From positions 8,989,501 to 9,053,500 of the forward strand of contig WPIO01000002.1 in NCBI GenBank assembly GCA_009760855.2: a stretch of 64,000 nt of DNA. The letters run 5' to 3'. The position numbers and the translations under genes are program-made. The DNA comes from Cristatella mucedo. Lineage: Eukaryota > Bryozoa > Phylactolaemata > Cristatellidae. The notes beneath the pieces are model-generated. The model was not told the origin of the DNA and made no database searches. It saw nothing but the letters and a program-made list of their open reading frames with translations. Positions 1 through 59,359 of the stretch are shown in pieces (the first letter of the stretch is position 1; each line of letters begins with the position of its first letter).

Positions 1-148
1 ACATTTAGGTTACCATACATGGCTAAGGGTATTGTACTAATAATATAAATGAATGTGCAATTCTTTCTTAAAAATATCTTAAAAGTATTATCTATTGAAT
101 GAAAAGCGTTTGTAGGACCACCTTCCATAATCTCTATTTGAAATAACT

Positions 149-640
149 TTAAGTTACGTATAATCGTCTCTTGATGCCCTGTTCTATTTTATCATCAAGA
201 TATTCTTTAGTGGCTATGTCATTTTCATTAATCGAACCTAATACCCTAACATATTTTTTAGAGTTGGCAGAAAAATCTTTTATTACCTCATCTAAAATCA
301 TTTCTAAGATAATTATTCTAAGAAAATTTAATAACTGATTCCAATTCATATACAGTACTGCCAAGGTTTTATATTTTTTTGAATCAAGATCTCACGTTCC
401 TTGCATATCTAAGTACTTTCTGGCAAACATTTATCCTATTGCTATATTAACGCTAGCATTTACTTTCTTAACGAATAATGCTGGTCCTGCTTCGAAGAAT
501 GCACTAAGTATTCACTTTTTATTTGCATCTAATGTATAAACACCAGATATTTGCACTTCTAATCCAGATCCTGTTGATGGAGGAGGCATAAGTACTTGAG
601 TTCCCACAGCAGGAATCTCATATGTGCCTAAACTACAAGT
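149..640 (-). pseudogene. Viral tail-fibre-like repeat protein, fragment
   Basis: Read on the minus strand from 364 to 149 there is an open stretch of about 71 residues with the motif NENDIATKEYLDD near its end. This is the 'DAxTKxYVD' signature found at the joints of phage tail-fibre-like repeats, also seen at 2.1-3.3 kb and 15.0-15.6 kb here. Upstream (640 to 365) the same strand continues in shifting frames with stops and reads as a structural-type sequence, so the gene is broken. The identification rests on one short motif plus the two better copies in the same element. It probably belongs to the viral element that fills 1-17.5 kb. The role in host attachment is inferred from phage fibres, not shown. 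Confidence 0.45.
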
Positions 641-732
641 ATTCCTCTAGGAATTACATTATCTCTTAAATTAGTAATCCATCTTCTTGTACTTTTCATC
701 CCAAATATTTTTTTACAGAAGCCTTCCGCTTA

Positions 733-1885
733 AATACGCACCCGTTTAAGTACGCATCCCGGTTAAGTATGCATATTTTTTTCGAAAATTCTACGTTCAA
801 GATTTATTAGTTAAACATGTCATGAATCGTCATTTGGTGCAGTTTATGAAGTTTCTTGCGTTTGGATTTAAGGAAGACCGCCAGGATTTTGCTCTGAAAT
901 GATTCAAACGATTTCTGTAGATTGCTGAATGCATCATCAGCTTCAATTTGACCTTCAAAGCTAATCCTCGATGTCGAAAACCTGCTTATAAAAGGATTCT
1001 AACCCCTGAAATAACTCCACTTTCTAAACCGACATTGAGGTCTTGAGGATTAATGTCGTTATTATCAGCCATCACACTTTCAACAATCTTCGTCGACTCC
1101 AAAGCTCGTCAACATCTTTAAATTGCGCAGCAACATATCCTTCATTGTCCTCGTCATCAACGTGAATGACTTTAAGTTTACCGATCAAAGCGCAGGGAAT
1201 TGAGTGAGTTCCGGTTGCGTTGGCGCAAACAATCAGGGAAACTTGATCTTTCACCTTCTTTTTGCCTCAAGTCGTTGAAATATCCTCGTCCAGTATAAGA
1301 AGACTATATCTGGAAGCAATAAAAAAACCGGTTTCGTCCATGTTGTAGACATTTTCGAGGTCATATTGCGCTAAAATCGCGTAAAGGTTTTCTAAAGCAG
1401 CTAACAATTCTGGATAGTTCTTGCTTACTTCTGCTCCCTCTCAGTGAAGGAGAATCTTCTGCAATCCATGCCGAACTCTGAATCGACTTAACCATTGCAA
1501 AGATGCCTTAAAATCTTATTCCGGGATTGAAAGGCTGGAAGCAATGCTTTTCGCTTTGGCCATGGCGAGGGATGGTGGTACAGGAAGGCTGGCACGACGC
1601 ATTATGTCTATCCAGACAAAAAGCACGTCCTCAAGCTCTCTAAATCGTCCAACTGACGCTCAAAAATTCCTCTCTTCAGCCTCTTCAGTCATCAGGGCAG
1701 ATCGTTCTTGGATCGCTCAACGGTTTTCCCAAATCTTTCGGATGGCGCCTTCACTAACACCGTACTCCGGCGCTATGGCCCTCTTACTGGGTGGGAGCTG
1801 ACGCTTTGCTTCGAGATGATTTTGCAGCGTTGAGACTCATTTAGGCGCTTGCTGTTTTGTTTCTTTGACATCGTAGCAAAATCAA
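733..1885 (-). mobile_element. Tigger/pogo-type DNA transposon, decayed and internally deleted
   Basis: The minus strand starts near 1882 with a basic N-terminus (MSKKQNSKRLNESQRCKI), typical of the helix-turn-helix of pogo/Tigger transposases. It is followed by a CENP-B-like DNA-binding segment ending in a 'WLSRFRVRHG' motif, then 'YNMDETGFF' and 'CANATGTHSIPCALIGK', the classic first part of the Tigger DDE domain. Right after IGK the protein jumps to an acidic C-terminal-type segment, so the central catalytic part with the later acidic residues is missing. Several stops and frameshifts are present. Repeated 'taagtaygcaycc' units at 733-770 look like the terminal repeat. It lies between two fibre fragments of the viral element and so inserted into it, or beside it. 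Confidence 0.7.
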
Positions 1886-2074
1886 AGCTCTAAGGAACGG
1901 GACAGGTTTTAGGAACGAGACAGGTAAATCAAAGGACAAGCAGAAAGCAGAAACAGAGAAACGCGAGGCAAGTCAATAACAAAAAACACACAGATGTTGA
2001 ATGAATCTGTCAGATCTCGCGTGCGCATCATAATATATACCGTGCTATGGGAGCTCAATAATATTAATTAAGTC

Positions 2075-3318
2075 TCTTAAAATTAAACCTCCTCAAATTT
2101 CTCCACCAATTTTTGATAGGCTTGTGTCAGCAAAGTCTTTAGTAGTAGTATTAATCGGATAAACCAGTGTAGCAAGATCCACTAAACGATTATTATTCAT
2201 GTCAATGTCTCCATCAGATGTGACTGTAGAAACTTTAGTAGCAAAATTTGTAATAATGTATCATCGGTTTACTGCATCTCCAGGATCAACAGGATGTCAA
2301 AGATTCCTTATTTGATTCTGATTCACATTCAGTAAACCTGAAAGTACATTATCAGTCCTTCAAATGCATTTATCTGATTGAGAACGTTTTCTTCTGTAAC
2401 CTAGTAACATTTTTCTATACTGTACTCGCAAGAAATTCTAAAAATGAAACTGAACTGTGAACTATAAAGTTATCTATAACATAATCACATAAACTCTTAA
2501 ATTTCATTTCTAAAACTTCAGTCCCAGAGACACCGAAAGTATTATCACTTGTTAATTCAACGAACGTTCCTGTTTTATCACTCGACCATAGTGTATCTGA
2601 AATAATACCAAGGTTGTTCACAAGGCTAAGAATTAAAATGATAAAAGATGCAGCAAATCCAGATTTATTTACTTTGATATCTATTATCGAAATATTACTG
2701 GGAGTTAGTTGCGAATCTGATATTTCTTCTCCTATTCCATTAACTTGAATAGTAAGACCTAAACTATTTAACTCAAACAATCTTGGAAAGCGTGCTATTC
2801 TTATATATCTAAAGTAACACTGTTGTTTAAATCTATTTACCACTTGTTTACTCACGAAGTCCGCATCTGAATGTTTCAAATAAGTAATATTGTTTAGTTC
2901 GAGGTCAATTGTTCCATTTTAGTTACCATTGAAGAACTGTGTCATACTCTTAAGTAATCCATAGTTAATTATCTTGTATGAGCGACTACTCTGATAAACA
3001 GTCCCATCAACAAATTTCTCAGAAATGCCAGTTACATTAACACAATTAAGTTGTGATCCAAGGATTCCGTGATTCTTACTAAGTAAACTTGTGCAAGCAC
3101 TAACTGAAGCCATTTCTCCAGAGACATGATTTACTGTGTTATTTCCAAAGTCTGACCCAAGAGCATAATCTAGTGTTATTGCATCAGAATCATCAACTGG
3201 TTTGCCTAGGGTTTTTCTTCTATTAAAATTGCAATCCATGTCACTCCATATTTGAACATCAATTTTCTGAATAATTTTCATTCTATATAGATGGAAAATC
3301 TGAAACTTAATGAGGGCC
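2075..3318 (-). pseudogene. Viral tail-fibre-like repeat protein, second block
   Basis: On the minus strand, from about 3240 down to 2075, the sequence repeats a unit of the form 'DxNxN+xxxLxxPxxxxDAxTxxYx'. Examples are the segment around MDCNFNRRKTLGKPVDDSD (near 3237), SDADFVSKQVVN (near 2870) and GDIDMNNNRLVDLA (near 2205). This is the repeat of phage tail-fibre and related virus fibre proteins, known there as trimeric host-attachment stalks. Two long open stretches, 3320-2919 and 2879-2415, are separated by frameshifts and stops, so it is a pseudogene. It faces the same way as the fragment at 149-640, from which it is separated by a Tigger element, and opposite to the fibre at 15 kb. The function in attachment is inferred. 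Confidence 0.6.
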
Positions 3319-3482
3319 AAGTTCTTAAAGTTGATGTATGGTAAATAAATAATACTAAAAGGAACTCTAGTAAAACTAACAAAGGCTTCGATAAATAAAA
3401 ATAATAAAGCCGTAACAAGAAGATTACAATATGGCTCTGTGGCAGAAGAAATACAATCTGGAATTGATGCTTCTAAAGAAGT

Positions 3483-4060
3483 TTACCAGGAGCAATTAAA
3501 GCAACTGAACTAGGATCAAAAGCTATTACTAAGGTTGCTCCAAAGATTGCAATGAAACTTAGTCTTACTGATTCAAACATAATTGCAACAATTGGTCCAA
3601 AGATTTTTCTATCGTTTAAGGTCATTGGTTCTGTAACAAAAAACTTTAGGCGGATTTGTATCAGGAGTAACAGGAATTGTAGACTTGGGATTATTTATAA
3701 AAGAAAGTAGTAGATTATATATAGTAGATTATATAGCTTCAGGAAAGTATGGAAATGTTCCGTGGAGGACCATAGAAGATACAAAAGGCTTATCTAAAAT
3801 GATTGCGTCTTTGGAGGTTGGGTATTATATACATGAAATATTATTAGAAGCAGAAAAACAATTCTGATTGGTATATAGATTGAAGTAAGTTATTCAGTGA
3901 AACATTTAGCGAAGAAGTAGATTGGCCTGCACCTCAACTAGATACTAAGTCCTGGTCAAAGAATTTCCTTGAAGTTCGATCGAGTCCGTTTCTTCCTGCC
4001 ATTCCGGCTATTATAGCTAGCTTTGCAAGCATGGTTCGACAGTTAGTCTTGCGGTTTCTA
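3483..4060 (+). pseudogene. Hydrophobic protein of the viral element, unknown
   Basis: Not recognised by name. From 3483 the plus strand reads an alanine/isoleucine-rich segment (SLPGAIKATELGSKAITKV), then a glycine/valine-rich hydrophobic stretch (FGGFVSGVTGIVDLGLF, about 3650-3700, after a frameshift). An open stretch of about 60 residues ends at 3867, followed after a stop and frame change by a segment with EEVDWPAPQLDTKSW. The hydrophobic, glycine-rich middle would fit a membrane or minor virion protein. At least two frameshifts and one TGA stop interrupt it. It lies between the fibre block and a coiled-coil segment in the viral element. The link to the virus is by position and base composition only. 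Confidence 0.35.
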
Positions 4061-4133
4061 TAGTTGTAACAGTTGCTAGTTTTACAAAGAAAATAATTCA
4101 TATTAGTTTATGTTTACTTCACGGGCGCCACCT

Positions 4134-4547
4134 ATGGGAACACATCAAGAGAGACTAAGTGCATTAAGTTTGCAGAGTTCTATGCTTAAGAATGCGATTA
4201 GTGACCTAAAAAAAAGATGATAGAACTACTAAAACGTGGGATAGATATAGATCTTTCTGAAAAAGTGCAAAGCTCAGAAGTGAGTAAGAGATTAGATTAT
4301 TTAAAATCTGGAAAAAGAGTTGTAGAAGGATCTGGATTTTCTTATTCAAATTGAAAGCCGACATACGAAAGTTGAAAAATCAAGGATTGGCGGCAAGAAG
4401 GCATGCGACTACAAGTCTGAATCTGCGACGCTATTAGTTAATCTTTATGTTCGAGGGAAAACGCAAGAAGAGATTTATAATGAGATGCTTAAACTAAGAG
4501 ATGAGTTACAAAGAAACGATGTAAAAATTGACAATGAGTATATCTAA
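4134..4547 (+). pseudogene. Helical, charged protein of the viral element, unknown
   Basis: Unrecognised. An ATG at 4134 opens a charged segment (MGTHQERLSALSLQSSMLKN). It frameshifts at an A-run near 4210, continues through a lysine/glutamate-rich part (MIELLKRGIDIDLSEKVQSS) and ends at 4547 after a helical, acidic-basic stretch (KTQEEIYNEMLKLRDELQRN). Two in-frame TGA stops lie near 4352 and 4373. The composition suggests an alpha-helical or coiled-coil protein of about 130 residues. It precedes the minus-strand HNH gene. No family assignment is possible by eye. Confidence 0.35.
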
Positions 4548-4765
4548 CTACCTGATTATCTTCTGTGAGGCAATAGATAAAATTTAGTTTTGCGAATTGT
4601 AGATGATGCCGAATAGCGCCAATGTCTCGCGCGACTGCTGCATCTTCAGCACTGGCGAAGTAGCCTAGGGGATATTTGTGATAATCTATTTTAATATAAG
4701 GTTACCGTTTTTGAATGAGATCTCTAACTAATTCCTATAAAACTAGAAGTCTTACTATACTCTTA

Positions 4766-5080
4766 CTATAAGTCTACGAATGTTTCGGATATTCCTGCAT
4801 GGCTTTCTTCGTGTAAATTACTAAACCTATTATTTGAAGGATTTCTGTCAATATAATCAAGTTATTGCAGGGGCATTTCCTCTTGCATAATTAGCCACGC
4901 AAGTCAATCTGTTAGATAACGTTTACCATCAAGACCTATAAAGCGGTACCCCTTTGAATAAATACATCCGCCTTCTGATCGCTCTCTTGCATTACCTCTA
5001 TTAGTCCTCCAGAAAAATCTGCCTCTATTTGGTTCATACTGTAAAAGCTCTAGGAGTCTGTTTCTAAAAGTTTCAGACAT
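4766..5080 (-). pseudogene. Phage-type HNH endonuclease, inactivated
   Basis: One minus-strand reading frame runs from ATG at 5080 to a stop at 4766 (about 104 codons) with only two interruptions, both TGA. Its N-terminus (LLELLQYEPNRGRFFWR) and middle (GYRFIGLDGKRYL) match the first half of small phage HNH nucleases. LAWLIMQEEMP and then DYIDRNPSNNRFSNL match the HNH finger and the conserved 'DHINGxxxDNRxxNL' end. HNH enzymes cut DNA with a one-metal beta-beta-alpha fold. Here the first catalytic His of 'DH' reads Tyr, and one TGA stands where the family has an Arg before 'LAWL', so the copy is dead. Full length for the family is 100-180 residues. It is opposite in strand to the capsid genes. 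Homing or packaging roles are both possible. Confidence 0.7.
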
Positions 5081-5149
5081 TTTAAATCACATAATAGTTT
5101 TTAAGCACTAAATAAAGAAATAGATCATCTAGTAGAGAATGTAATCTCA

Positions 5150-5752
5150 TGAAGCTAAAGTAGCTCTATCTGATTATCAAATAAATATAATCTCAAAGTC
5201 TAAACAGCCTATTTCAATTAGATTCAATCATGAGGACTGAACAAATACTATTCTAGTGACAAAACCCAGCTTATTAAGATTGAAAAGTTCAAGAATTCCG
5301 GAACGGGAATGCAAATCAACTTCAGAGCAAAACAACTAAAAGCAAATAAAAAATGGCTCTGGCATAATTGACTTTAAAAAAAATTATCTAATTGACAGGA
5401 GTTTCATTTAAGATTACCATCTGGAGTAAAAGGTGAGGAAGTTCTGGGTGATAGATTTAATAACACTAGCAGATACTCATATGCAGGCCCTGGTACTAGG
5501 TTTAGTGAAAGGATGAGTCAAGGTTATGTAGGAGTTAAGGACCTAGACCGAAGAGCACTAATCCACGATCCTGATTACACCGAGTAAGGAACAATGAATG
5601 AACCTCAGCGAACAGAAATAAGAAGCACCTCTGACTTTGTACTAGCTGAATCACCAGCAATAATAGCACTGGATCCTAGACAACCAGGATATGTTCGTGA
5701 AGATGCTAAAACTGTAGCTGCAATTATGGCAAGAAAAGCAAAACTAGGATAA
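5150..5752 (+). pseudogene. Minor capsid protein with parvovirus-like phospholipase A2 domain (Maverick/adintovirus type)
   Basis: The N-terminal part (about 5250-5350) carries LVTKTQLIKIEKFKNSGTG followed by a basic stretch, resembling the start of minor capsid proteins of Mavericks and adintoviruses. From about 5400 comes LPSGVKGEEVLGDRF, then YAGPGTRF (calcium-binding loop of the PLA2 fold) and LDRRALIHDPDY, which holds the catalytic His-Asp pair and the following Tyr. The C-terminal part is helical and ends in VAAIMARKAKLG, as in the Maverick family, with the stop at 5752. In parvoviruses this domain lets virions breach endosomes; the same role is inferred for adintoviruses. A TAA stop just after the HD motif and frame changes before 5400 break the gene. 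The catalytic motif itself looks intact. A LINE is inserted directly after it. Confidence 0.75.
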
Positions 5753-5777
5753 GGGATTTCATTAGGCGAAGCTATTA

Positions 5778-6535
5778 ACATAATAATAATAATAATAATA
5801 ATAATATTGCACTTGATAAAGCGCCCTCAGAGAACTTAATCTCTTTCTAGGCGCTTTACATTTGCTGCAAAGTGATACGCAATAGAACAGTAAGTAAAAT
5901 CATGCTTGAAAAACAAACAAAATGAATAACATGGTTAGGGGTTACATGCACTGGGTCAGCATGCAAATGTGGTTAGTGGCAGCATGAACAGTGTCAGCAC
6001 GCATAAGCACATCGAGGACGAATCACAAGGACCCACTAAATGCTGTCCTAAATAGGTATGTTTTTAAGTTTCTTTTAAATGTGGTCAGGTCAGGGGATGT
6101 TCTGATGCAGGTCGGGAGGGAGTTCCAGGCTGTGGGAGCATACGAGCTAAATGCACGGTCTCCAAAGGATTTAAGGTTTGTACGAGGTATTTCTAGACTG
6201 TTGGATTCCGAAAAGCGAGTGGTACGATGCTTTGCCTGATGGGGTAGTATCTCTGAAAGATAGGCTGGAGCCATAGAATGAAGAGACCTAAAAGTGAGCG
6301 ACAAAACCTTGAAGTCAATCTGTTGCTTGACTGGTAACCAGTGCAGGTCGGCGAGAAGTGGAGTAATGTGGCAACTGCGACGCTCACGACAGACCAGCCT
6401 AGCTGCAGAGTTTTGCACCAGCTGCAATCGCCTGATCGCACATGCTGGTAGGCCAGTAAGCAGTGAGTTGCAGAAGTCGAGACGAGATGTCACGAATGCA
6501 TGGACCAACTTGGACGTGGTATCCACGATTATTTG
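5778..6535 (-). mobile_element. Family 1 LINE (CR1/L2 type), 5'-truncated copy A
   Basis: The minus strand carries about 167 residues of the C-terminal end of a LINE ORF2 ([20 protein letters not shown] near 6505, [43 protein letters not shown]). The 3' untranslated part follows, with the terminal hairpin (gcgccctcagagaac...ctaggcgct at 5821-5858) and an AAT microsatellite tail at 5782-5806. The frame is open over this length, so the copy is relatively young. The truncated 5' end near 6535 is normal for target-primed insertion. It sits in the viral element after the PLA2 gene. Confidence 0.85.
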
Positions 6536-6831
6536 CGACTGATTTCTTAAAAGATAAAGTATCTTACCCGGTTATTCTCAATAATATCAAGAGCTATGCT
6601 TGATATTTTGCTGACCGATTGTTGGACATAATAAAAAATTATAAAACAATTACTAACAAAACTAATTAAATAAGTGTTTGTTTTATTTTATTTTTTTACT
6701 TTATTTGATTGTTTTATTAATAATCAACAAGATTGAACTCTACCCGTTTGGGATCATTATGGAATTTAACTTAATTAAATTTTTAATCTTAGATTGAGTC
6801 TTAACTCAGACTTATAATATTCTTTAGTAAC

Positions 6832-7216
6832 CTAGCCCCCATCTAAAACTCCAGTTATCCCAAAGTCATTTCCTATTTGCTGAAGGATATCACCAGGGCT
6901 CGAAAACTTCATTTGTTTATTCTTTTGGTCAAAGAAAAAACTTGGTTGGGTTCGAAAATCAAGTCTATTTGCCATAGTTGATATTTGGCTAAGGTAATCT
7001 GGTTTTGCACTCGCTTTATTAACTATATTTTGAAGGGCAGGAATCATATCGAGTAATGTAAATATATGCATTTCGATAACGCTTTAGCCCTTTTGTTAGC
7101 TTTTCCTTAACATGAAGTCTAGCAGACTTACCTTTTAGAATACTGACTTTTGCGTCATCGAGGACAACAAATTTCTTTTCCTGAGCACAGTCGTCCCTTG
7201 CTACTTTGCGCTTCAA
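6832..7216 (-). pseudogene. Unrecognised protein fragment
   Basis: Two overlapping minus-strand open stretches in different frames, 7216-7019 and 7071-6832, could be one protein of about 125 residues broken by a frameshift. The first is basic (KRKVARDDCAQEKKFVVLDD, then a lysine-rich run), the second is mixed (IGNDFGITGVLDGG at its end). No family is recognised. It lies between LINE copy A and a Tigger remnant, in AT-rich DNA like the viral element. It may be viral or part of the adjacent transposon. Confidence 0.25.
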
Positions 7217-7869
7217 CTTTCACGGCTTCGCTCTATCGTGTTTTTTTGAAAAACAAGTATATTCATTAAAAGGTTGATCAAAATAGTGAAAATGATACAA
7301 CGCGCGCTCGTTTTTTCTGAGTCAGTTATACACTCATGTATTAAAATTAAAATTACAAAAATACTGTACGTATGGAACGCAAAAGAAGACGACGACGCAT
7401 CTGTTGAAGATACTGCACCACATGAAGACTCTCCTACTGAAGTCGTGCATTTACAGGAGCAGTTAACTTGCTCTCTTTTGCTTTGATGTACATCTCTTCA
7501 TTTTAATTGCTTCATTACCAAACGCACTATTTTCATAGCTTGGTGTTTGTGCGTAAGAATTGTGTCTGTGTGCAATTAAATGTAAAAAAATAACAATACG
7601 ATGTGTTTAACGTCTAATATGTCTTATTTTCTCTAATTTTGTCTAATGTATTTAGTAATACAAGTGTAATGGTAACTAAAGGGGTATTATATCATGTCCG
7701 AAGGGCTCTAATTTTGTTAAAAACCATATTTAGAGTGAGATAAACAGGTCTTCTATGATCTAACTACGAAAGTTTTTGATTTATAAATAGATAATCCTAC
7801 TTCGCGGAAATTCACCTATTGCGGTAGAGTCTGGAACGGATTTTCTGCGATAAACAAGGGTCGACTGTA
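7217..7869 (+). mobile_element. Tigger-like DNA transposon remnant with 3' terminal repeat
   Basis: The right end at about 7795-7867 (cttcgcggaaattcacctat ... gggtcgactg) is the terminal repeat typical of Tigger-type elements, and is followed by TA, the target duplicated by this superfamily. Before it, an acidic tail (EDDDASVEDTAPHEDSPTE, near 7390-7450) resembles the C-terminus of a Tigger transposase, followed by an AT-rich 3' part. The sequence near 7217-7260 (cacggcttcgctctatcgtg) resembles sub-terminal sequence of the left end, so most of the transposase gene is deleted. It differs in terminal repeat from the Tigger at 0.7-1.9 kb. Confidence 0.6.
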
Positions 7870-8062
7870 TTTTATTCCATTTCTATGAAGTATAGATTTT
7901 TTGTATAATTTAAAAATCAATTACAGAAGTAACTCCATTGTTGTTCCTGAGGCTATATTATCCAGTTTTAAGTAGATTAGACATTTTAATCTGCAGTCTG
8001 ATTGGTCATAGTCTTGTAATTTAAAAGTTAAAAAACTTTGTAGAACACCTAGATAATCAATA

Positions 8063-8203
8063 GATTTTGATAAAGGTGGAGCACCAAACGAATCAAAATT
8101 GAAACAGTTATCTCCTTATTTCTTAAATGCTACCCAATTATTAAGTGCTAAGTCTTACTTACCTGTGTTGAAAATCAACAATTCATTTTCTTTTGGCTTA
8201 CAT
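8063..8203 (+). pseudogene. Viral structural protein (penton-like?), left part, split by hAT
   Basis: An open stretch beginning DFDKGGAPNESKLKQLSPYF and ending with FSFGLH runs straight into the left terminus of the hAT transposon at 8204. Its continuation lies at 10907-11167. Taken with the right part, it sits before the capsid gene in a place where Mavericks often carry the penton or a related structural gene. The left part alone has no diagnostic motif; the link is by position and by interruption of the frame. Confidence 0.4.
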
Positions 8204-10898
8204 CAGGGGTGTCTAACACGTGGCCCGCGGGCCACAACCCGGCCCACCGAGGTCTTCTATGCGGCCCGCAACGTTATCCCAAAAATATTTGTCACTCCAT
8301 GTTTTTCGTTAATTTTTAATAATTACAAACGGCGATATAAGGCGCTGTGATGTACTTCACGCGCGCGTGAAGGTGTCCGAATGGCTATTTTCGCGTGAAG
8401 GTAAAATAATCGATTTATTTTGCTAGCCTTCATGTGAACATTTTGGCGTGAAGGGGTAATATATTTGTGCTTCAGCGGCGCCATTACGATCCCATTTATA
8501 ACGCTTCCGCAAGCGGAATTAACTGTTTCACAGTGCGGATAGAAAAAAGAGCCGTTTCTCAGCTGCTGCTGCACGAACTGGAATCAGTCAGGTAGGTTTT
8601 TCAAAAAACGCGTATTGCTCAACTTACTTACTAATACTAAGATATTGCTGTGATAAAATATAAATTAATCAATTCGTAACTGATCTGTTTTTTTATTTCA
8701 CAGAGAAAAATGGCGGCGAATGTGAATGCTAGCAAAAAACGAAAAATTGGCGCAGAAGGAAGACTTTTCAAAGCATCTTGGACTGTAGACTATTTTGTAA
8801 TGGAAGGCTTTGGTAGGATAATGTGCCTAATACGCCAAGAAACAATTGCCGTTGCAAAGGAGTACAATGTTAAGCGACATTTTTCAACAAAGCATGGCGA
8901 CAGGTACAACAGCCTGACTGGTCAACTTCGAATTGATCGCGTGAACTCGTTGAAACAGAGCGTCATCGGACAGCAGTCATTGTTTACAGCAGTCAGTAAC
9001 AAATCTGAGGCTTCAACCAAAGTAAGTTTTTCAATAGCTGAAGCTATAGCTAAGCGGGGGAAAGCATTTTCCGATGGTGAATTTGTTAAGGAATGCCTCA
9101 GGCTGTTTACTGGTGTGGTCTGTCCAGAAAAGAAGTCAGAAGTAGAGAAAGTCAGTCTTTCTCATCAAACGGTTACGAGAAAAGTTGACGAGCTCGCATC
9201 CGACATAAAAGAAAGTCTCACTAAAAGACTTGCTGAATGCGAATTGTATTCTCTTGCGCTCGACGAAAGCACGGACAATAGCGATACGGCTCAACTGTCG
9301 GTGTTTGTACGCGGAGTAACAGGAAAGTTTGTCATTATCGAAGAACTGTTGGATATCTGTTCAATGAAAGGCACTACAACGGGGAGGGATATTTTGGATC
9401 AGGTCAAGAGGGTCCTCAAAAAATTTAATCTTCCTGAAACTAAATTGATTGGTTTAACCACAGACGGAGCCCCTTCAATGACAGGTAGACACAATGGATT
9501 TGTATCTTTAATGGTAAAATTAGTACCTCACAAAATTTTCAGTCATCACTGCATCATCCACCAAGAACAGCTATGTGCAAAGGTCTTGAGCATGCAACAT
9601 GTAATGGACAATGTAGTTTCAGCAGTCAATGTGATAAGATCTCGTGCGCTAAACCACAGACAATTTCAGGCTTTCCTTGAAGAGTTGGGATCAGATCATT
9701 ATGATGTTATTTATTTCTGCCAAGTCCGTTGGCTAAGTAGGGCAAACACGTTAGCCAGATTTTGGTCACTTCGGGACGAAATAAAAACATGTATGACAGA
9801 AAAGGGAAAATATTTTGGCTTCCTTGATGACCAGCAGTGGTTGAATGACTTGACTTTTTGGTGGACATGACCAAACATCTTGCAGATCTTACTGTCAAAC
9901 TCCACGGTAAGGATCAACTGGTCCATAAAATGTATGAGTGTGTTGTCGCGTTTGTGCAAAAGCTGAAACTTTTCCGGAAGCACTTAGATCAGAAGAAACT
10001 GTTACATTTCACAACACTGGCAACAAGATCGCCTGAAACGCTGGCTCATATGAAGTACTCCACTCTTGTTAGTAAACTTGTTGATGAATTCGAAGAGAGG
10101 TTTCAGGATTTCCAACAACATGCGGATGACATAAACATGATTAGTAATCCATTTAATATCGATCCCTATGATGCACCTGATGAATTTCAACTCGAACTAA
10201 TCGACATTCATAATGATAGCAATTTAAAAACTGCTTATGATCAGCATGACCTTGCTACCTTTTACACGCAGTATGTTTCATCAGAGTCTTTTCCTAACCT
10301 AGCCAAACATGCTCGCAGGTATATTGCACGTTTTGGCAGCACATATTGCTGTGAACAGCTTTTTTCCAGACTGAAAAATGTGAAAACAAAGACTCGATCC
10401 GTTCTCACAGATGAACATTTATCAGGAATCCTTAGAATTGCCACGTCCACTGTTGCAGCAGCTGTCGACTTTTTATGCAAACAGAAACAATGCCAAATAT
10501 CTCATTGATGCCTGCAGTGCAGAAGACATCGAATACCTGTGGCATTTAATTAATCCGAATGCATTAATATTATGTGAGTCCTTGTCATGTAATTTTGTAA
10601 GTTTTATAAGTTTTTGTCTTCATGTTATTAAAATAAAAATCCAAAAGTAAAAGATTGGCCATAATATCTCGAATTATTTTCCAGGACACATGATTAAATT
10701 CTTATTATTTATTATTTTAAATTTTAATTATGCTAAAAATACTATTATATTGCGGTTTCTTAAGTATAATAGTAATAGTCATACTAAATTACGATCTTAT
10801 TTTCTGATGCGGTCAACTACGCCAATTTACATGTGGCCCCCGGACCTTTTCCTTTTTATAAATGAGGCCCCGCAACACAAAAAGGTTGGACACCCCTG
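8204..10898 (+). mobile_element. hAT-superfamily DNA transposon, about 2.7 kb, nearly complete
   Basis: The ends are inverted repeats: caggggtgtc at 8204-8213 and its complement gacacccctg at 10889-10898, with weaker similarity further in (the left end continues with a GC-rich 'gtggcccgcgggcc', the right with 'gtggcccccgg'). The flanking 8-mers, gcttacat on the left and gtctagat on the right, are the size of a hAT target duplication and agree at five of eight positions, so the duplication has decayed or one end was replaced. The interior holds one transposase gene. The element is more GC- and CpG-rich at its left end than the surrounding viral DNA and interrupts a viral gene. Confidence 0.9.
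8710..10508 (+). pseudogene. hAT transposase (GTF2IRD2/ZBED5-like), one frameshift
   Basis: Two long reading frames, 8710-9870 and 9858-10508, join if one T is restored in a T-run near 9855, giving about 600 residues, usual for this group. The N-terminus has the remains of a BED zinc finger: CLIR followed by KEYNVKRHFSTKH, with the second cysteine of the expected CxxC replaced by Arg. The RNase H-like core shows LALDESTDNSDTAQL (first Asp), LTTDGAPSMTG (second Asp), HCIIHQEQLC, and in the second frame STYCCEQLFSRLK (catalytic Glu and dimerisation motif). It would cut and paste the flanking element. The ATG at 8710 is taken because it starts the basic leader MAANVNASKKRK before the BED domain. 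With the frameshift and lost Cys it is probably inactive but recently so. Confidence 0.88.
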
Positions 10899-10906
10899 GT
10901 CTAGAT

Positions 10907-11167
10907 TGTGACTTTGTTAATCCTGATTAGAACTACATAGAATATAATTCTGGATTTCTATCTTAGTGTTGTTCATTATATTTTATAGATAATGCAGATA
11001 TAGATCCTGGAGAGAAAGCTGACATTAATATCCCTAAAATAATGTTTTTACCATCAAGAGGTGATATGGAAGCAATAAGAACTTTAAAAATTAGTCTAAC
11101 AGACCAAAATGAAAATCTAGTCAGTATTATTTGTAATGCTATGGTTACCATAGAAATTTCAAAATAG
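10907..11167 (+). pseudogene. Viral structural protein (penton-like?), right part
   Basis: Continues after the hAT element. The readable part is from about 10985: DNADIDPGEKADINIPKIMF, then EAIRTLKISLTDQNENLVS, ending in VTIEISK and a TAA at about 11165-11167. The pattern '+xLxIxLxDxNxxxV...xxxxIEI' is like the last beta strands of penton/minor capsid proteins of Mavericks and related viruses. That comparison is from memory of the family and is weak. Stops lie between 10907 and 10980. It comes shortly before a coiled-coil gene and the major capsid gene. Confidence 0.4.
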
Positions 11168-11176
11168 TAAAGAGAA

Positions 11177-12293
11177 TGGGGAGTTATGCTAAAATTGGTC
11201 ATGGAAAAATTATTTAGGAGGAAAATTTGATGGATCTGGTCTTCCTGATAAAGTAATTGACGGAATCGGGAAAGTGGCTCTTTTAATCTCTGGAATCAGG
11301 CGATTGCAGCTGGTGCAAAACTCCGCAGCTAGGCTTGTCTGTCGTGAGCGTCGCAGTTGCCACATTACTACACTTCTCGCCGACCTGCACTGGCTACCAG
11401 TCAAGCAACGGATTGACTTCAAGGTTTTGTCGCTCACTTTTAGGTCCCTTCATTCTATGGCTCCAGCCTATCTGTCAGATATACTACCCCATCAGGCCAA
11501 GCATCGTACCACCAGCTTTTCGGAATCCAACAGTCTACAAATACCTCATACAAACCTTAAATCCTTTGGAGACCGTGCATTTAGTTCATATGCTCCCAAA
11601 GCCTGGAACTCCCTCCCGACCTGCGTCAGAACATCCCCTGACCTGACTACATTTAAAAGGAACCTAAAAACACACCTATTTAGGACAGCATTTAGTGGGT
11701 CCCTGTGATTCGTCCTTGATGTGCTTATGCGTGCTGACACTGTGCATGCTGCCACTAACCACATTTGCATGCTGACCCTGTGCATGTCACCCCTAACCAT
11801 ATTATTCATTTCGTTTGTTTTTCAAGCATGATTTTACTTACCATTCAATTGCATTTCTCTTTACAGCAAATGTAAAGCGCCTAGAGAGAGAGAGAGAGAG
11901 AGATTAAATTCTCTGAGGGCGCTTTATCAAGTAAATTATTATTATTATTATTATTATTGGAATGACTAACCTTGGTGTAAACGTAACTAATAAAGGAATT
12001 GAGATGCATCAAGCAAGAACACTTATTAAACTGCAAACGAGAAAAGAAAGATTAGATCAAGATTACACCCAGAAACGTAGAGAGCTAGATGATAAACTTG
12101 ATGAAGAAAACGAAAAAAGGAACTTGAATATAAACTTGAGAGACGTAGTAAAGAAGAAGATTATTACCGTAAAATTAAAGAGATGGATCTTGGAATCAAA
12201 CGAGCTATGATAGCAAAACTAGAGCCTAAGAAGAAAAGGAAATATAAATCTAAAATGGAAGATGATGAAACTGAGGATTACTCTGACACTACA
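11177..12293 (+). pseudogene. Gly-rich then coiled-coil viral protein, split by a LINE
   Basis: The left part (11177-11282) encodes a glycine-rich stretch (KFDGSGLPDKVIDGIGKVA) in two frames. LINE copy B then interrupts it. The right part opens at about 11961 (MTNLGVNVTNKGIEMHQART) and is strongly charged (RKERLDQDYTQKRRELDDKL), so probably a coiled coil. After a frameshift near 12125 it continues to LEPKKKRKYKSKMEDDETED and a TGA near 12291. PKKKRK is a classical basic nuclear-localisation motif; use for that is inference. The combination suggests a structural or DNA-associated protein encoded just before the capsid gene. No named family. Confidence 0.45.
11283..11956 (+). mobile_element. 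Family 1 LINE, 5'-truncated copy B
   Basis: A 144-residue open frame reads the same ORF2 C-terminus as copy A ([59 protein letters not shown], stop at 11706-11708). The 3' part, hairpin (aagcgcctagagagag ... gagggcgctttatc, 11876-11929, with an expanded GA run at 11882-11902) and ATT tail (11938-11957) follow. The short repeat tggaat occurs just before the insertion (about 11291) and just after the tail, and could be the target duplication. It interrupts the coiled-coil viral gene. Confidence 0.87.
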
Positions 12294-12299
12294 AGAAAA

Positions 12300-12444
12300 T
12301 GATCCAAATACAAACAAAGAAATAGAATGCCTTATTAATACAAAATATGTTTTACCTGAATGAACTAGAGCTGATGGCTTTGGCGGCTACATGAAAAAAG
12401 TGGAGCTGGGTTATATATCCAGAGTAAAAAATTCTTTTAAATAA
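12300..12444 (+). pseudogene. Short coding remnant of the viral element, unknown
   Basis: A reading frame from 12300 to a TAA at about 12444 has one TGA inside. It contains NTNKEIECLINTKYVLPE and, after the TGA, TRADGFGGYMKKVELGYIS. It is unrecognised and lies between the coiled-coil gene and the capsid gene, so it may be the end of the former or a small separate protein. Confidence 0.3.
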
Positions 12445-12534
12445 ATATAGAGAAAAAATTACTAGTGCTCCGTCCGATTTAGACTATCCTTGAATTGAGT
12501 ATTTCAAGTTTACCCAGATATCTTATTAAAACTT

Positions 12535-14130
12535 ATTAGTGTCGTGAATTTTACCAAACAAACGGAAACGAGCTTGATACTCTTTCAAGGAAACTTGTAA
12601 TCTTTACTGTGCCTGGTGAACAAGTTTTGATTTTTCGTTCTGTCAGATGCTAAGTCACTACTAGAAGGTCAGATCCAAGTTCAGGCTACTGACACAAGAG
12701 CTTATGCTACACCTAATAGAAAACTAGCAGCAAGTCTTGCTAACAATACAGGTGCTTGGACGCATGGTTCAATAAAAGTTAGACTTGAGGCAGAAGAAAT
12801 CGAAATTATTTCAGTACCATAAGGGCCAGGAACAGTTTAAACTCTTATGGGTCTTCTTGCTCATCCAAACAATTGCAATAGAACTGGAGGTCCTGCTGCT
12901 GGGTGGAAGAAAGAGGACGCAAATTCATTAGATGATATGAACACTGGTATTACAAATTTCGTTAGCCCTGCTGCACCTGGAGCAACTGCTTCTAAAAACG
13001 GCTTATCTATCGCAAGGGGGATTACCAATACTTTAACGGATACCGTTAGAACATTTAGTATATCACTTTTACTTTCAAAATTATCTCGGTGCTGTGCAGA
13101 TATGAATAAAATTCTGTATAGCATTCCATTTACGCTTGAACTTACTTGGGTTGGTGGATCGGATTTCGATGCTATAATGACAGAAGTCACCGGAGCTGCT
13201 GCTAATACATCGGACGCATTACCAACTACGGGTACAGTACTAGCTCAACCACAAGGTGGAAACTTTACTGATTTAGAAAATGGTGACGGTGTTTATAAAG
13301 CATTTTGAATTAATTAGAATTAGAATTAATATGCCAAAAAATGAGACTAATAGATCCACGAATTACTCCTGCTCTGAGTATTGAAAGAAGCCTAGAAGAG
13401 ATCTCCAGTGAACGTGAAAAGAAACTAAAACTGAACTACAGAGTTAGACGATATGAGAATTTGACCCTTAATAGTTTTAACCAAGAATTAAATTACAATA
13501 GAACATTACAGCAAATGTGAAGCGCCTAGAGAGAGATTGAGTTCTCTGAGGGCGCTTTATCAGGTGAATTATTATTATAATCATTATTATTAACATAATC
13601 TGTTCATAATACTATTGAAAAAGTTATAATAAATAAGACATGTTATAGGTTATAAGACAAAGTTTATTGCAGCGGCGCAAAATTTTGATGATAAATATGG
13701 TAAATACACAGGCAATCCCTGTAAGTATAGCCACTGCAATATTTAGAATGTAGATGTATTTGCAAATAGTTCTACTCAGTTCCCAAGTAGTGCTAGAACT
13801 AGTTATCCTAAGGATAAAAAATGCTCAACTGAATATCTAGACTTTGCTCAATTTGGAAAACCTTGGCCTTGGCCTTAATAAAATCACAGAACCTGTAGAA
13901 GTTACTTATCAAGTATGGTTAAGTACATATCCAATTCATGTAATTGACTTACTAGCCAATAATCAGCTTAAATGACTACTACAAGACTTGATTTAGCAAT
14001 TGAGGTCTTTAAGACGATTCCTGCTCCTGCTGCTAGTGCTCAACAGACATGGATTATTGTGCATTACTTAACGATCTGTGACAATACTGCCGAACTAAAA
14101 ATCAAACGGTAACGGATCGCAGTTTACATG
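12535..14130 (+). pseudogene. Major capsid protein, double jelly-roll (Maverick/adintovirus hexon-like)
   Basis: The order of segments follows the family from end to end: VPGEQVLIF and SLLEGQIQVQATDT (first strands, 12600-12690), LANNTGAWTHGSIKVRLEAE with EIEIIS (12735-12820), GLLAHP (12850) followed by a Gly/Pro-rich loop. Then come SKLSRCCADMNKILYSIPF and TLELTW with DAIM (13075-13180), the family's 'fgfcedydkvlyGip' and 'dDAIfr' blocks. In the second jelly roll are CKYSHCNI, SSTQFPSSARTSYP and YLDFAQF (13710-13860), YPIHVIDL (13930) and TRLDLAIEVF (13985). The family is 450-600 residues and this span fits. The longest intact piece is 12847-13308; elsewhere there are several frameshifts, stops and a short LINE insertion (copy C). 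It would form the virion shell. Confidence 0.8.
13512..13598 (+). mobile_element. Family 1 LINE, minimal 3' end (copy C)
   Basis: Only the last 85 or so bases of the LINE are present: gcaaatgtgaagcgcctaga, the terminal hairpin to gagggcgctttatcagg, and an imperfect ATT tail. It is inserted in the capsid pseudogene, whose sequence continues after it. Confidence 0.8.
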
Positions 14131-14239
14131 CATGAAAGGATCGTGGGTACATGATCATTTTGATACTGAAGGCAATTTTAACCAGAATATAAATTGAAAA
14201 TTTGATTTTATGCAAGGTCTAGAATAATAAAGAAAATCT

Positions 14240-14935
14240 ATGACCTTGAAAATAGGCGGATCAGATGCTCATTCAGTGCTTAGTCATGATACGGTATTTG
14301 GAGATCAGAGTGAAATGGATATAAAGAAAATGGCAAGCAACACGGAAACTAAACCAATATAGAGCTAATAACGATGAACTGAAGTTTCTTCTAATGCTAT
14401 TTGGCAAAGTCTTTGAACCTATTATTGCTAAGTTTTTAGAAATGAAACTTGGTATACAACTTGAAAGCGCTAATGATTGCTTTACTAGAGATGACGTTTA
14501 TAGGTATTCTCTTGATGGTATAACTGATGGCAATACTTTACTTGAGATAAAATGCCTGTGGTGTTGGAATATTATTAAAGACTTTATACCTAAGCAATAT
14601 CACCCACAATGTTTAATAGGTTTACATGTTGTAAGATCAAGTGAATGTTATTATTCTGAATATGAAAATTTTGTCCCAGGATTAAACTGACGGAGTTCCG
14701 CTTGATTTTATAGCTGATGGATATTGCAGGATTCCGACTCTTCATGAACTTAGTATGCCAAATGCCAATCCGTAGTCCACTTTTTAGGCTCTCACTCGAA
14801 GATGAGAATTGCTTTGATTTCGAGTTTGACATAATAAGCAAATATGGTAGATTTAATAACAAATTAAGAAAACATTATGATATAATGTATTACATTAAAA
14901 AGATCTTTAATCCAAGTTATAAATGAAGAAGATCT
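14240..14935 (+). pseudogene. YqaJ/lambda-type exonuclease (PD-(D/E)XK nuclease) of the viral element
   Basis: The core is an open stretch at 14394-14690: FGKVFEPIIAKFLEMKLGI matches the 'GxxxEP' helix of YqaJ-type recombinase nucleases, YRYSLDGITDG matches 'LGASPDGi' with the catalytic Asp, and LLEIKC gives the catalytic Glu-x-Lys. IPKQYHPQCLIGLHV and CYYSEY follow as in the family ('ip..YyaQvQ...', 'c.y..'). The N-terminal part, from the ATG at 14240, is in another frame. The C-terminal part (FIADGYCRIPTLHEL, then an open stretch to 14924) is again shifted. Such 5'-3' exonucleases act with annealing proteins in viral recombination. Catalytic residues are all present, yet at least two frameshifts make the gene dead. 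It follows the capsid gene on the same strand. Confidence 0.65.
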
Positions 14936-15009
14936 TAATAGATTTGCAAGAATATTTCCGAATGGGAAAGAAGTGTTAAGCAGATCTAAAGTTTAATCAG
15001 AATATATAG

Positions 15010-15896
15010 ATGGATCGCAAAGTAGGTCTTAGTGTTTGCGTAACAAAAATTGATGTTTATCTATTATCTGACCTTGACGAAAATGGAAATGGGGTTATTA
15101 ATTTAAGTGATCCTGTGAACTCAACTGATGCTGTTACAAAGAGTTAAGCTGATTCTAATTTCATGGTAACTAGAAATGGTGCTGTTGATTTCAAAGGACT
15201 TCCAGCTGTTAATCTTATACATTAAGTTAATCCTGGTGAGGCTGTTAATGTTGGTTTGTTAGGCAATCATGTTAATAAATGTGGCGATACAATGACTGGA
15301 GACCTAAACATGAATGGATTTGCTATTAATTCAAGTTACTGGAACTCAAGCAAGACTACTCGAACTATTATTCCTGATGACTTTTGTGTTACGTATGATG
15401 GACTAAAACGAAATGTAATGCTAAATGGAAGTCCTGCTTGTAGTTCTTTGAATATGAATGGGAATTCTATTAATAATGTTGTCGATCCTTTTAATCAGAG
15501 TGATGCAGCAACTAAAGGATATGTTGACGATACGATAAAAAAGCAACAGAAGTAATTCCATTATCAGTTAACGACAAATACATGAATTACATCATACAAA
15601 CTTTAATTAATTATTCATGGACTAACAAGTATGCTCCACCGTTAACAATTTTACGCGTAATGGTTGTTGGTTTATTTAATGATGTGTTCCTAAGACCGAA
15701 TACTGATACTTCTGCTGTGTCTTGTGAAAAGCGTGCTATAAATACTGTTTCTAACGGAACCGATTTCCATTACTATACTTTCTTCAATAGATTGACTACT
15801 GACTATTATTTCATTGATAATCTAGAAAATCTCAGTAAATATATTGGTCAGCTATATACTTATGTGAAAAATATAAATGAAACAATAATACGATAA
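15010..15896 (+). pseudogene. Viral tail-fibre-like repeat protein, third block
   Basis: Opens near the ATG at 15010. At least three repeats are seen: VINLSDPVNSTDAVTKS (15090), HVNKCGDTMTGDLNMNG (15270-15315) and SLNMNGNSINNVVDPFNQSD with AATKGYVDD (15455-15530). 'DTMTGDLxMNG' and 'DAATKxYVD' are signatures of phage tail fibres and of fibre proteins in some large DNA viruses, where they form trimeric stalks for host attachment. A frameshift at 15535-15555 leads into a second open stretch (15582-15896, MNYIIQTLINYSWTNKYAPP) that is likely the C-terminal head. Two TAA stops interrupt the first part (near 15147 and 15225). This is the best preserved of the three fibre blocks and lies on the capsid strand, opposite the other two. 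Confidence 0.68.
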
Positions 15897-16050
15897 ATTC
15901 TTTTAATTTGTATCCTTACGTTATCCCTTTACGAATGGTAAAATTTTTGAAATAACACAAATAGCTTCATGCTCACAATAAACATGCAGACAGCATACTT
16001 CTGAACACCTTTTTAAAGTTTTTTCTTGCAAGACGATATAGCTTACTAGG

Positions 16051-16300
16051 CTACTCTTTAGAATAATTATTGCTAGCATAATGACAATCAGAGCATATTA
16101 TTATTTTGTTTTTACGTAGGATTCCAAAACCAAATTCTGTTTCATTACTATCCAGATCATAGAGGACACATCGGATTTCATATTTTAACTTTGGTCTTCG
16201 AACAATTTGTTTTACAAGCATGGTGACCGGACTCGAGATATTCAAGTTCTGTTACAGTTTTAGAAAAAGTCTTAGAACAAATTTTACAAGTTACTTCCAT
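16051..16300 (-). pseudogene. Small putative zinc-binding viral protein
   Basis: The minus strand opens with ATG at 16300: MEVTCKICSKTFSK, then ESGHHACKTNC, a CxxC ... HxxxC spacing that suggests a zinc finger. After a -1 frame change near 16190 the frame continues to a second CxxC-like pair (IIICSDCHYAS) and a TAG at 16051. Total about 83 codons. It starts only 9 bases from the start of the plus-strand integrase, so the two genes are divergent. No named family; zinc binding is inferred from cysteine spacing. Confidence 0.45.
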
Positions 16301-16309
16301 TTCTATAGA

Positions 16310-17190
16310 ATGTCAATTTTAACTCTAAAAGAGATAAAAAAAGAAGGAAACTTTGATCCGGATTCAGATATAAGCCAATTATTCAAACCAAGGCCAAAGG
16401 AAATTCTCATGGGGTTCATTGAAACAGTAGTACCTATTGAAAGTCATCATGCAGTTATACTGTGAATGCCAACTGATTCTGGATATAAATACGCACTAAG
16501 TGTGATTGATGTCGTAGCAGATATAAAGACTCAAGACCACTTAAACCCAATTCATTGAAAGAAGTTGCACAAGCTTTAATTGACATTTACTCAAAAGGTT
16601 CTTTAGAATGGCCAACGAAGATAACGGTAAATCCTGCACCAGAGTTAAAATTACAGTTCAAGAAAGAAATGAATAGACATAAAATACGTTTAATAGGAGC
16701 TACTAGCAAGAAGAGTGTGGCACTAGTTGAAAGAATGAATCCAAAATAGGCAGAAAGAGCTTTTATTGCACAGTATGAAAAACAATTAGAAAATCTTAAT
16801 AAAGAAGATTGTGTTAGGAACAAAAATGGATTTTTAATTTACCTAGGATTCTAGATAATTTTAATAGTAACATTACAAGCTCAAAAGGAGAAGAATAAGC
16901 TAAAGCTATAAAAAAGAAAGAGCTAAACGAAAGAAACCAGAGTACCATAGAGAATGGGGGGAGCATGAAGAGCTATTAGAACTTGGAACAACAGTTAGAT
17001 ATTTACAAGAACCAGGCGAAGGTGAAGGGTGAAAAAAAGAAGAGCTATAGATCCGATATGGAGTTTAACTAAGCATATTATTGTTAGAATAATGGTAATG
17101 AAAGACCAAACTCTACGTTTTTGGGTCAGTGGTGTTAAAAGAAGTTTTGTTAGAGAAGAGCTACAAGTAGTTAAAGAAGAGTGGTTAATT
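16310..17190 (+). pseudogene. Retroviral-type integrase (rve family) of Maverick/Polinton kind, inactivated
   Basis: The gene starts MSILTLKEIKKEGNFDPDSD (ATG 16310). A TGA precedes MPTDSGYKYALSVIDV (16467-16515), the first catalytic block. After a frameshift near 16530 come LKEVAQALIDIYSKG and ITVNPAPELKLQF, where the family has 'VDxGxEF', so the second catalytic Asp reads Asn. VALVERMNPK keeps the catalytic Glu. The chromodomain-like end (LELGTTVRYLQEPGEGEG, then VKRSFVREELQVV at 17130-17170) is typical of Polinton integrases. Interruptions: TGA near 16464, a frameshift, TAG after NPK at 16748, frame changes to 16990, and TGA near 17029. It would insert viral DNA into the host genome. In Polintons the integrase lies near one terminus, which agrees with the right edge of the element here. 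Confidence 0.8.
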
Positions 17191-17502
17191 TGGAACCACT
17201 TCTATTTCATGGGAGTCTTTCATAATATCTTCAAATTTATCTCTAGTTAGTATTTCACCTGACAAAGCACCATTTATCTTTGAAATAAACTTTGCATTTA
17301 CTTCTAGAGTTGATCTTTTGCGTTTATCGATTTCAGCGAGAACTCCATCAGATGCTACTATCGTTGCAGATACTACTGAAAAAATTGGAACTACATGAGA
17401 TAGATTAGGAACGGAAAGAATATATGAGTTGGTAATTGTTACTCCTAAAGCTTTTACTATGTTTGAAAATTTCAGAGCATCATTGTTAGATTTTCTAGAC
17501 AT
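17185..17502 (-). CDS. Uncharacterised protein at the right end of the viral element
   Basis: A 105-residue open frame starts MSRKSNNDALKFSNIVKALG and has a hydrophobic middle (VVPIFSVVSATIVASDGVL) that could be one membrane segment, then a basic stretch and an acidic end. It is convergent with the integrase and overlaps its last codons. Unlike its neighbours it has no stop within this length. It is not recognised; it could be a small membrane or structural protein or a chance frame. Confidence 0.35.
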   Translation of the reverse strand: MSRKSNNDALKFSNIVKALGVTITNSYILSVPNLSHVVPIFSVVSATIVASDGVLAEIDKRKRSTLEVNAKFISKINGALSGEILTRDKFEDIMKDSHEIEVVPN

Positions 17503-17754
17503 GATCTTACTTTAGTATTGTCTTATACAACTTCTTCATATCTTTAATTTGCATATTTTTTTCTTAGATCTGACATTTCTAAATAAATTAAAAAAAAATA
17601 TTTTATAAGTAATAGAGTAAAAAATAAACCAGAATTTCTCTTGAACTAGACTGGTTTTTTTTAACGTATTGCAGTTTTGAAAGTTATGGAGACGCGATAT
17701 GGAACGCGAGTGAGCACGAGTTAACCGGCTAGTGCCCTTGGCTACATAAAATTC
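17503..17754. other. AT-rich right boundary of the viral element
   Basis: No gene. The AT-rich composition of the viral element ends around 17,660. No clear terminal inverted repeat can be matched by eye to the left edge of the window, which lies inside the element or its decayed margin. Confidence 0.3.
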
Positions 17755-18310
17755 AAAACTATACTACTTTAGAAGCATGCGAACTAAAGGCGCGGTATCC
17801 AAAGAACTTGAGGTTTGTACGAGCTAGATGTAAACAGATAGACTCCGAAAAGCAGCTGGTACGATACCTAGCCTAGTGGGGCAGTAGATCTTATAGGTAA
17901 GCTGGAGCCATAGTATGAAGAGACCTAAATGTGAGTGACAAAACCTTGAAGTCGATGCGTCGCTTGAATGGGAGCCAGTGCAGGTTGGCGAGAAGTGGTG
18001 TGATTGGGAAACTGCGACGCTTACGACAGACGAGCCTAGCTGCAGATCTTTGCTCCAGCTGTAAGTGCCTCATTGCACAGGGTGGAAGACCAGCAAGCAG
18101 TGACTTACAGAAGTCGAGACGGGATGTCACAGATGCAAGGACGAATTTAGATTTGGTATCCCTGTCTAGACATGCCCGAATTTTAGCAATGTTATATGGC
18201 TGAAAGTAGGCAGACTTGGCTGTTGGCTTATGTGATCTTTGTTTCTGGCAGCAAGAGGGTGAGCCTGCAATCCCAGAAACTGTGGAGGTTTGCGAAGTGT
18301 TAAGGGTTTC
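17755..18310 (-). mobile_element. Family 1 LINE copy D with chimeric 5' segment
   Basis: The minus strand gives a 166-residue open stretch with the LINE ORF2 C-terminus ([39 protein letters not shown]). The 3' end is cut at about 17,755 with no hairpin or tail. At its 5' side (18,215-18,310) it carries a segment (VSGIAGSPSCCQKQRSHKP) not seen in most copies but shared with copy R at 59.36 kb. Confidence 0.75.
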
Positions 18311-43097: not shown

Positions 43098-45205
<2,108 letters not shown>

Positions 45206-54650: not shown

Positions 54651-54652
54651 CC

Positions 54653-55252
54653 TCACTTTCGCTGCCCTTTTCGGATACTGCATGCCGCCGCCGACGCTGC
54701 CGGCGGCTGCTTACAGTAGCCCTGGTAGGTGGCCACGAGGCGAACGAGAGAGCTCAGGCTTCGCTCGCCGCCCGCCGCCAGGCCGTCCAAGCGCCGCAGG
54801 TGGTGAGCGCTAGGCTGCGGCCCGTCGGCGGCGCCCAGCAGTCCGAGCAGCGCCTCGAGGCGCTCGAGCGCAAACGCTAGCCGCCCCAGCTCGGCTCGCA
54901 CCCTGTTCCGGATCTGCATCGTCGAGGCGACGGTGGCAGCAGCCGCCGTCGCACTGGCTCCCCGGTCCCCGGTGACGCCGATGGACGAGCCGCTGGCGGC
55001 AGAAGCGGCCGTCCGAGGCCCCATGACGAGACAGGCGAGGCTGTGCTCCACGACGTGGTGGGCTGCCAGCTTGAACGCGACCATCTTGCTCAGTCGCTCC
55101 CGAGCCTCGGCGAACAGCTCTCCGAGCAGTGGCAGCGAACGTGGCGCTGAGGACACTTGCGACAGGTATTCTCCGATTGTGTTAAGCTGCAGCGGCACAC
55201 CAGGCACGGAACCGTCGTGACGAGGGCGGTCAGCACGAGGATCAAACGACGA

Positions 55253-55292
<40 letters not shown>

Positions 55293-56694: not shown

Positions 56695-56731
<37 letters not shown>

Positions 56732-59285: not shown

Positions 59286-59359
59286 CTTGACAGAGAGCCG
59301 TAAGAGCAACGATTAGCCGTGTGCCTGCTGCTAAAATACGGTAAACATGTGCCAAAAGG

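Follow-up and report, generated by a model that had tools for sequence, protein, structure and literature searches.

Polintons (Mavericks) are marked by a retrovirus-type (rve) integrase, a protein-primed PolB, a double-jelly-roll major capsid protein and terminal inverted repeats with a target duplication, and most of them also have an FtsK-type ATPase and a cysteine protease. Some Polintons are reported to carry PLA2-type lipases of the parvovirus type (PMC4642659). Phage-like fibres, including phage tail repeats, occur in Polinton-like viruses of protists, as does an HNH_3 endonuclease with AP2 in Symbiodinium, and homing endonucleases that spread selfishly have been described for these viruses (PMC12220804). 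Two features define adintoviruses, a PolB that bears an OTU-like domain and a hexon recognisable by BLAST; their rve integrase has a chromodomain (PMC11071296). The capsid genes of cnidarian Polintons are reported to fall outside the main animal cluster (PMC10120064). We describe a degraded, AT-rich viral block with many transposons that occupies bases 1 to ~17,660 of a 64,000-nucleotide stretch of the bryozoan Cristatella mucedo (contig WPIO01000002.1, positions 8,989,501 to 9,053,500 of the forward strand; the whole stretch is referred to hereafter as the window). The block is probably one dead endogenous Polinton/Maverick-type animal DNA virus with phage-like accessory genes. Its left end lies outside the window and the element is seen only in part.

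The six reading frames were split into pieces running from stop to stop, and each piece was searched separately. Three genes in the block, those for a YqaJ nuclease, an HNH endonuclease and a fibre, are confirmed by profiles, and all of them are broken remains. The genes and candidate genes assigned to the element are the following (positions in the window).

152-391, minus strand: fibre-type piece, weak (phrog_26630 tail fiber at 0.012; phmmer 0.013-0.016 against 15226-15552)
2096-3482, minus strand: fibre-type block of three pieces (2096-2260, 2418-2918, 2922-3482), with mixed support
4492-5086, minus strand: HNH endonuclease with an AP2-like C-terminal part, broken (4907-5086, 4769-4861, 4492-4701; phrog_99, HNH_3)
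5396-5749, plus strand: broken gene, a candidate for a PLA2-like minor capsid protein (5396-5584 by motif, 5588-5749 by position only)
12631-13305, plus strand: candidate capsid gene pieces, unconfirmed (12631-12819, 12841-13305; size and position only)
14325-14687, plus strand: YqaJ-type PD-(D/E)XK nuclease piece (PF09588, phrog_434, active-site-like motif)
15010-15893, plus strand: fibre gene pieces (15010-15144 and 15226-15552 by PHROG profiles, 15528-15893 by position only)
16466-16746, plus strand: candidate for the rve integrase, with a broken frame and a degenerate motif (two family motifs in order)

Both nucleases proposed in the preliminary description, which was made from the letters alone, were recovered by profile searches. 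The YqaJ piece matched PF09588 at 7.8e-7 (Pfam; 29.9 bits, above the cut-off of 22) and phrog_434 at 2.2e-7 (PHROG profiles). It also holds an active-site-like motif, which was matched once in 500 shuffles, and judged by its sequence the identity of this piece is certain. At E 0.01 the piece had no match among 50,697 phage records, and no match was found in plasmids. The three pieces of the HNH gene are collinear on phrog_99, covering positions 110-159, 179-199 and 229-270 of 383, with matches of 6.4e-10 (5086-4907), 0.0034 (4861-4769) and 3.8e-5 (4701-4492). The middle piece also matched PF13392 (HNH_3) at 4.2e-4, its 20.3 bits falling below the cut-off of 24.8. The N-terminal, HNH and AP2 parts of an HNH-AP2 homing endonuclease are present in order on the minus strand, and at the level of sequence the identity of the HNH gene is likewise certain. 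The name AP2 for the C-terminal part follows a motif that we take to be characteristic; this part had no Pfam AP2 match. The first piece (5086-4907) had matches in 183 of the 50,697 phage records, all below 60% identity (46-48% for the best 10 of the 183).

Three fibre blocks had also been proposed. Three can be drawn, of which one is firm by profile and the others are weak or are placed by linkage or by eye. The firm piece, 15226-15552 on the plus strand, matched phrog_30390 (function unknown) at 1.3e-6 and phrog_26630 ('tail fiber') at 2.6e-6, and ten phage records match it weakly, over part of its length. Its neighbour at 15010-15144 matched phrog_2710 at 0.0039. When 14 query pieces were each compared by phmmer with 1516 window pieces of at least 25 amino acids, 15010-15144 matched 15226-15552 at 4.3e-4 and, on the minus strand, 3482-2922 at 4.4e-4, so that the fibre pieces on the two strands are linked through it. 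The minus-strand piece 2922-3482 had no Pfam or PHROG match of its own, 2418-2918 was called fibre-type by eye only, and 2096-2260 matched only Phage_T7_tail at 0.017. The last value is not significant among the 114 pieces that were scanned with Pfam. These were the pieces of at least 42 amino acids, from 123 of at least 40, minus those centred in four transposon stretches.

As had been proposed, the block is AT-rich. The content of G and C (GC) was measured in overlapping 1-kb intervals in which transposons take up no more than 100 bases, the leftmost base reached being 2001. GC was 0.36 or lower in 30 of the 35 intervals in the element (range 0.31-0.38 between transposons); of the 135 intervals at 18.4-53 kb in the flank, where GC is 0.42, 4 were as low. 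Low values were also found at 1-800 (0.315), to the left of a richer insert at 801-1800 (0.43), at 10899-11282 (0.307) and at 11961-12630 (0.324). The larger inserts are richer (0.44-0.45 for the LINE-like copies and 0.40 for the hAT transposon), unlike a 98-base LINE-like tail (0.34). At the right edge GC climbs from 0.20 (17512-17660) to 0.42 (17661-17766) and then to 0.48 in a LINE-like copy that begins at 17767, in agreement with the end point of 17660 given earlier. Because low GC is common to the stretches between inserted transposons, a single element is favoured over unrelated insertions; low GC on both sides of the inserts gives the block the look of a single DNA stretch that was interrupted later. 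Over 12.6-16.7 kb the order on the plus strand is candidate capsid, YqaJ, fibre and integrase.

The assignment to Polintons draws on the candidate PLA2 and rve genes, for which motifs were found and profile support was not. A PLA2 signature (Y-x-GPG ... HD-x2-Y) lies at 5480-5578 on the plus strand and occurs once in the window; when the first 17.8 kb were shuffled 400 times with dinucleotides preserved, it never appeared. The Pfam match of the proposed PLA2 minor capsid gene (PF08398, 0.069) is not significant, a value of this size being expected by chance among the 114 pieces. For the proposed rve integrase, the motif of the N-terminal half (16484-16516) and that of the C-terminal half (16630-16740) stand in the right order, 113 bases apart and in neighbouring frames, and neither half was matched in 500 shuffles. 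The patterns used for rve are those we take to be typical of the family, and by the same assumption one catalytic position of the C-terminal motif is degenerate, consistent with decay. The patterns for both genes were written after the pieces had been seen, which makes the shuffle controls lenient, and the counts therefore flatter the motifs.

Several results weigh against one virus of this type. The double-jelly-roll capsid of the preliminary description was not confirmed: no match to the candidate piece 12841-13305 was found with Pfam, with PHROG or in the protein database, its one PDB match, to an unrelated protein, was at chance level (0.27), and a model built from the single sequence was uninformative (pLDDT 32.7). 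Calling it a capsid is a guess from size and place. The rve candidate had no Pfam, PDB, protein-database or fold match, its single-sequence model (pLDDT 68.8, pTM 0.25) being equally uninformative. No PolB, FtsK-type ATPase or protease family was found among the 114 pieces and no P-loop in 1-18000, the left end lying beyond the window; one PolB-like core-motif match, inside a fibre piece, is a chance match. No terminal inverted repeat or target duplication of the element was found in 1-19000, with the same limit on the left. GC exceeded 0.36 in 5 of the 35 intervals and is 0.40 at 1801-2095, a short stretch without an insert. No relative was found in viral contigs, which were queried with the capsid, YqaJ, integrase, PLA2, HNH and two fibre pieces singly, nor in genome contigs scanned with the YqaJ piece, and the capsid, YqaJ and integrase pieces had no match in the protein database. 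These searches reach close relatives only, and in the protein database only proteins similar in length to the piece, so the absence of relatives says little. A missed capsid match would not be surprising either, if the capsid here lies, like those of cnidarian Polintons, outside the main animal cluster (PMC10120064), although this is speculation. When the 114 pieces were scanned with Pfam, 15 families reached 0.1; weak rows at 0.003-0.097 (Spore_YunB, Phage_holin_2_2, DUF815 and others) were treated as chance.

Among known systems the element most likely stands closest to the Polinton/Maverick-type viruses, with which we place it loosely. It resembles Polintons in its rve-type motifs, its PLA2-like motif and its integration in an animal genome. 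It differs from them in that PolB, the ATPase, the protease and terminal repeats were not found in the part within the window and in that the capsid is unconfirmed; YqaJ, too, is unreported for Polintons among the literature matches listed, from which subscription journals are mostly absent. With the Polinton-like viruses of cryptophytes and other protists it shares phage-like fibre repeats and an HNH_3 plus AP2 endonuclease (PMC12220804), but its host is an animal and it carries YqaJ, a word that occurs 0 times in PMC12220804. The same paper says that the cryptophyte viruses are without membranolytic lipase genes, whereas a PLA2-like motif is present here. As in adintoviruses there is an association with an animal and there are rve-type integrase motifs (PMC11071296). 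Unlike in adintoviruses, OTU-PolB was not found within the window, nor was the C-terminal chromodomain: with Pfam, neither the 114 pieces nor 16750-16851 yielded a chromodomain family, although decay could hide one. Of the label Maverick/adintovirus-like that the block had been given, the Polinton/Maverick-type half best fits the mixture of genes, and the adintovirus half is not shown, PolB and a chromodomain having been looked for and not found in the part within the window.

The block had further been suggested to mark an undescribed lineage. This claim is weakened because HNH and tail-fibre repeats have both been reported already in protist Polinton-like viruses (PMC12220804); the association with YqaJ remains unusual. 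YqaJ next to HNH-AP2, fibres and PLA2 in an animal element did not appear among the literature matches listed, again with subscription journals mostly absent; those listed that held both YqaJ and Polinton concern, by their titles, giant, algal or related viruses (PMC8715426, PMC11253617, PMC12085832, PMC4602308). The combination may be new for animals. It is possible, though we hold it with some doubt, that the block stems from an undescribed lineage of animal Polintons with a core of rve, PLA2 and a divergent capsid, to which YqaJ, HNH-AP2 and phage-type fibres on both strands were added. The capsid would then be too divergent for the profiles used, and the accessory set would be one otherwise known from protist viruses.

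In a clam genome YqaJ-like domains are among the highly expanded domains of repeats and endogenous viruses (PMC7826175), and for this reason the YqaJ piece could be a separate repeat and not part of the element. An alternative for the whole block is a pile-up of unrelated insertions, in which an animal repeat with YqaJ, a gene for HNH and an element with an integrase landed close together. The clam repeats favour such a history, as do the known transposons nested in the block and the failure to find common ends in 1-19000, but we consider it unlikely in view of the low GC common to both sides of the inserts, the related fibre pieces that the block holds on its left as well as on its right and the position of YqaJ, which on its strand is preceded by the candidate capsid and followed by the fibre. 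We put the chances lower again for a fragment of another eukaryotic DNA virus of the nucleocytovirus or mriyavirus type. YqaJ is encoded by many Nucleocytoviricota and a homologous PDDEXK nuclease by most mriyaviruses (PMC11253617), yet besides YqaJ no family of nucleocytovirus type was found among the 114 pieces, and the rve and parvovirus-type PLA2 motifs point to Polintons. Bacterial phage DNA, either an assembly contaminant or transferred to the host, would account for the phage relatives of the HNH gene and of the fibre repeats, but their identity to phages is low and partial and the YqaJ piece had no match at E 0.01 in the 50,697 phage records. The genes are moreover broken and animal transposons are nested inside them; contamination was rejected on these grounds, and we regard a phage origin as highly improbable.

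If the block is a single Polinton/Maverick-type virus, its parts suggest, by analogy with the known pathway of such viruses, how it may have worked. By their fibres the virions would have bound to the host cell, the endosomal membrane would have been opened by the PLA2 part of a minor capsid protein, and the rve integrase would have placed the viral DNA in the germ line. YqaJ might have served in recombination or end processing of the viral DNA. The HNH-AP2 gene, which lies on the opposite strand, may have been a homing endonuclease riding in the virus and spreading in its own interest. Stops, frame shifts and the hAT and LINE-like insertions would later have silenced the element. A single element would mean that animal-integrated Polintons, like the Polinton-like viruses of protists, can bear phage-like fibres and homing endonucleases and that YqaJ joins their toolkit; the position of animal Polintons, between the viruses of protists and adintoviruses, would become easier to define. 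With YqaJ as a repeat of its own, there is nothing out of the ordinary about the element.

The remaining features of the block are inserts and one open frame.

5774-6571, minus strand: LINE-like insert, limits approximate (5840-6436 is 94% complementary to 11295-11891)
8204-10898, plus strand: hAT DNA transposon (transposase domains, inverted ends)
11283-11960, plus strand: LINE-like insert, limits approximate (inverted copy of 5840-6436)
13503-13600, plus strand: LINE-like tail inside the candidate capsid region (repeat comparison)
17188-17511, minus strand: open frame at the right edge, unbroken, 105 amino acids with an ATG; no significant family attributable among the 114 pieces scanned

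Another Pfam scan took in 60 chosen pieces, of which 54 lie in the last 43 kb of the window and 6 in regions of the block that resemble transposons. Dimer_Tnp_hAT (2.2e-4) and DUF4371 (8.1e-6) were each matched by one of the 60, the pieces not being named in the output. The ends of the hAT transposon were found by eye. They are inverted and alike at 13 of 14 bases, and the flanking 8-base duplication, which is decayed, agrees at 5 of 8. The copy that begins at 17767, at the right edge of the block, is a third relative (80%) of the two LINE-like inserts. We presume these copies to be of LINE type, their recurrence across the window having been noted by eye with no family match. At 810-1800 on the minus strand lie what we take to be remains of a Pogo/Tc5-like transposase; HTH_Tnp_Tc5 was matched at 0.043 by one unnamed piece of the 114, which is not significant.

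The window is animal DNA, in which single pieces of the 60 matched a C-type lectin domain, the hAT transposase and, from an RBR-type ubiquitin ligase, the RING and IBR domains. A GC-rich island (0.57) at 53000-60000 holds the RING and IBR pieces, which were placed there by eye (56296-57773, minus strand; IBR_1 at 2e-10). Two similar C-type-lectin-like exon pieces lie in opposite orientation about 12 kb apart, at 32176-32752 (minus strand) and 44247-45180 (plus strand); Lectin_C was matched at 1.7e-5 by one of the 60 pieces, and the other lectin-like piece is alike by eye. A perfect (TG) microsatellite of 73.5 copies is present at 44637-44783.

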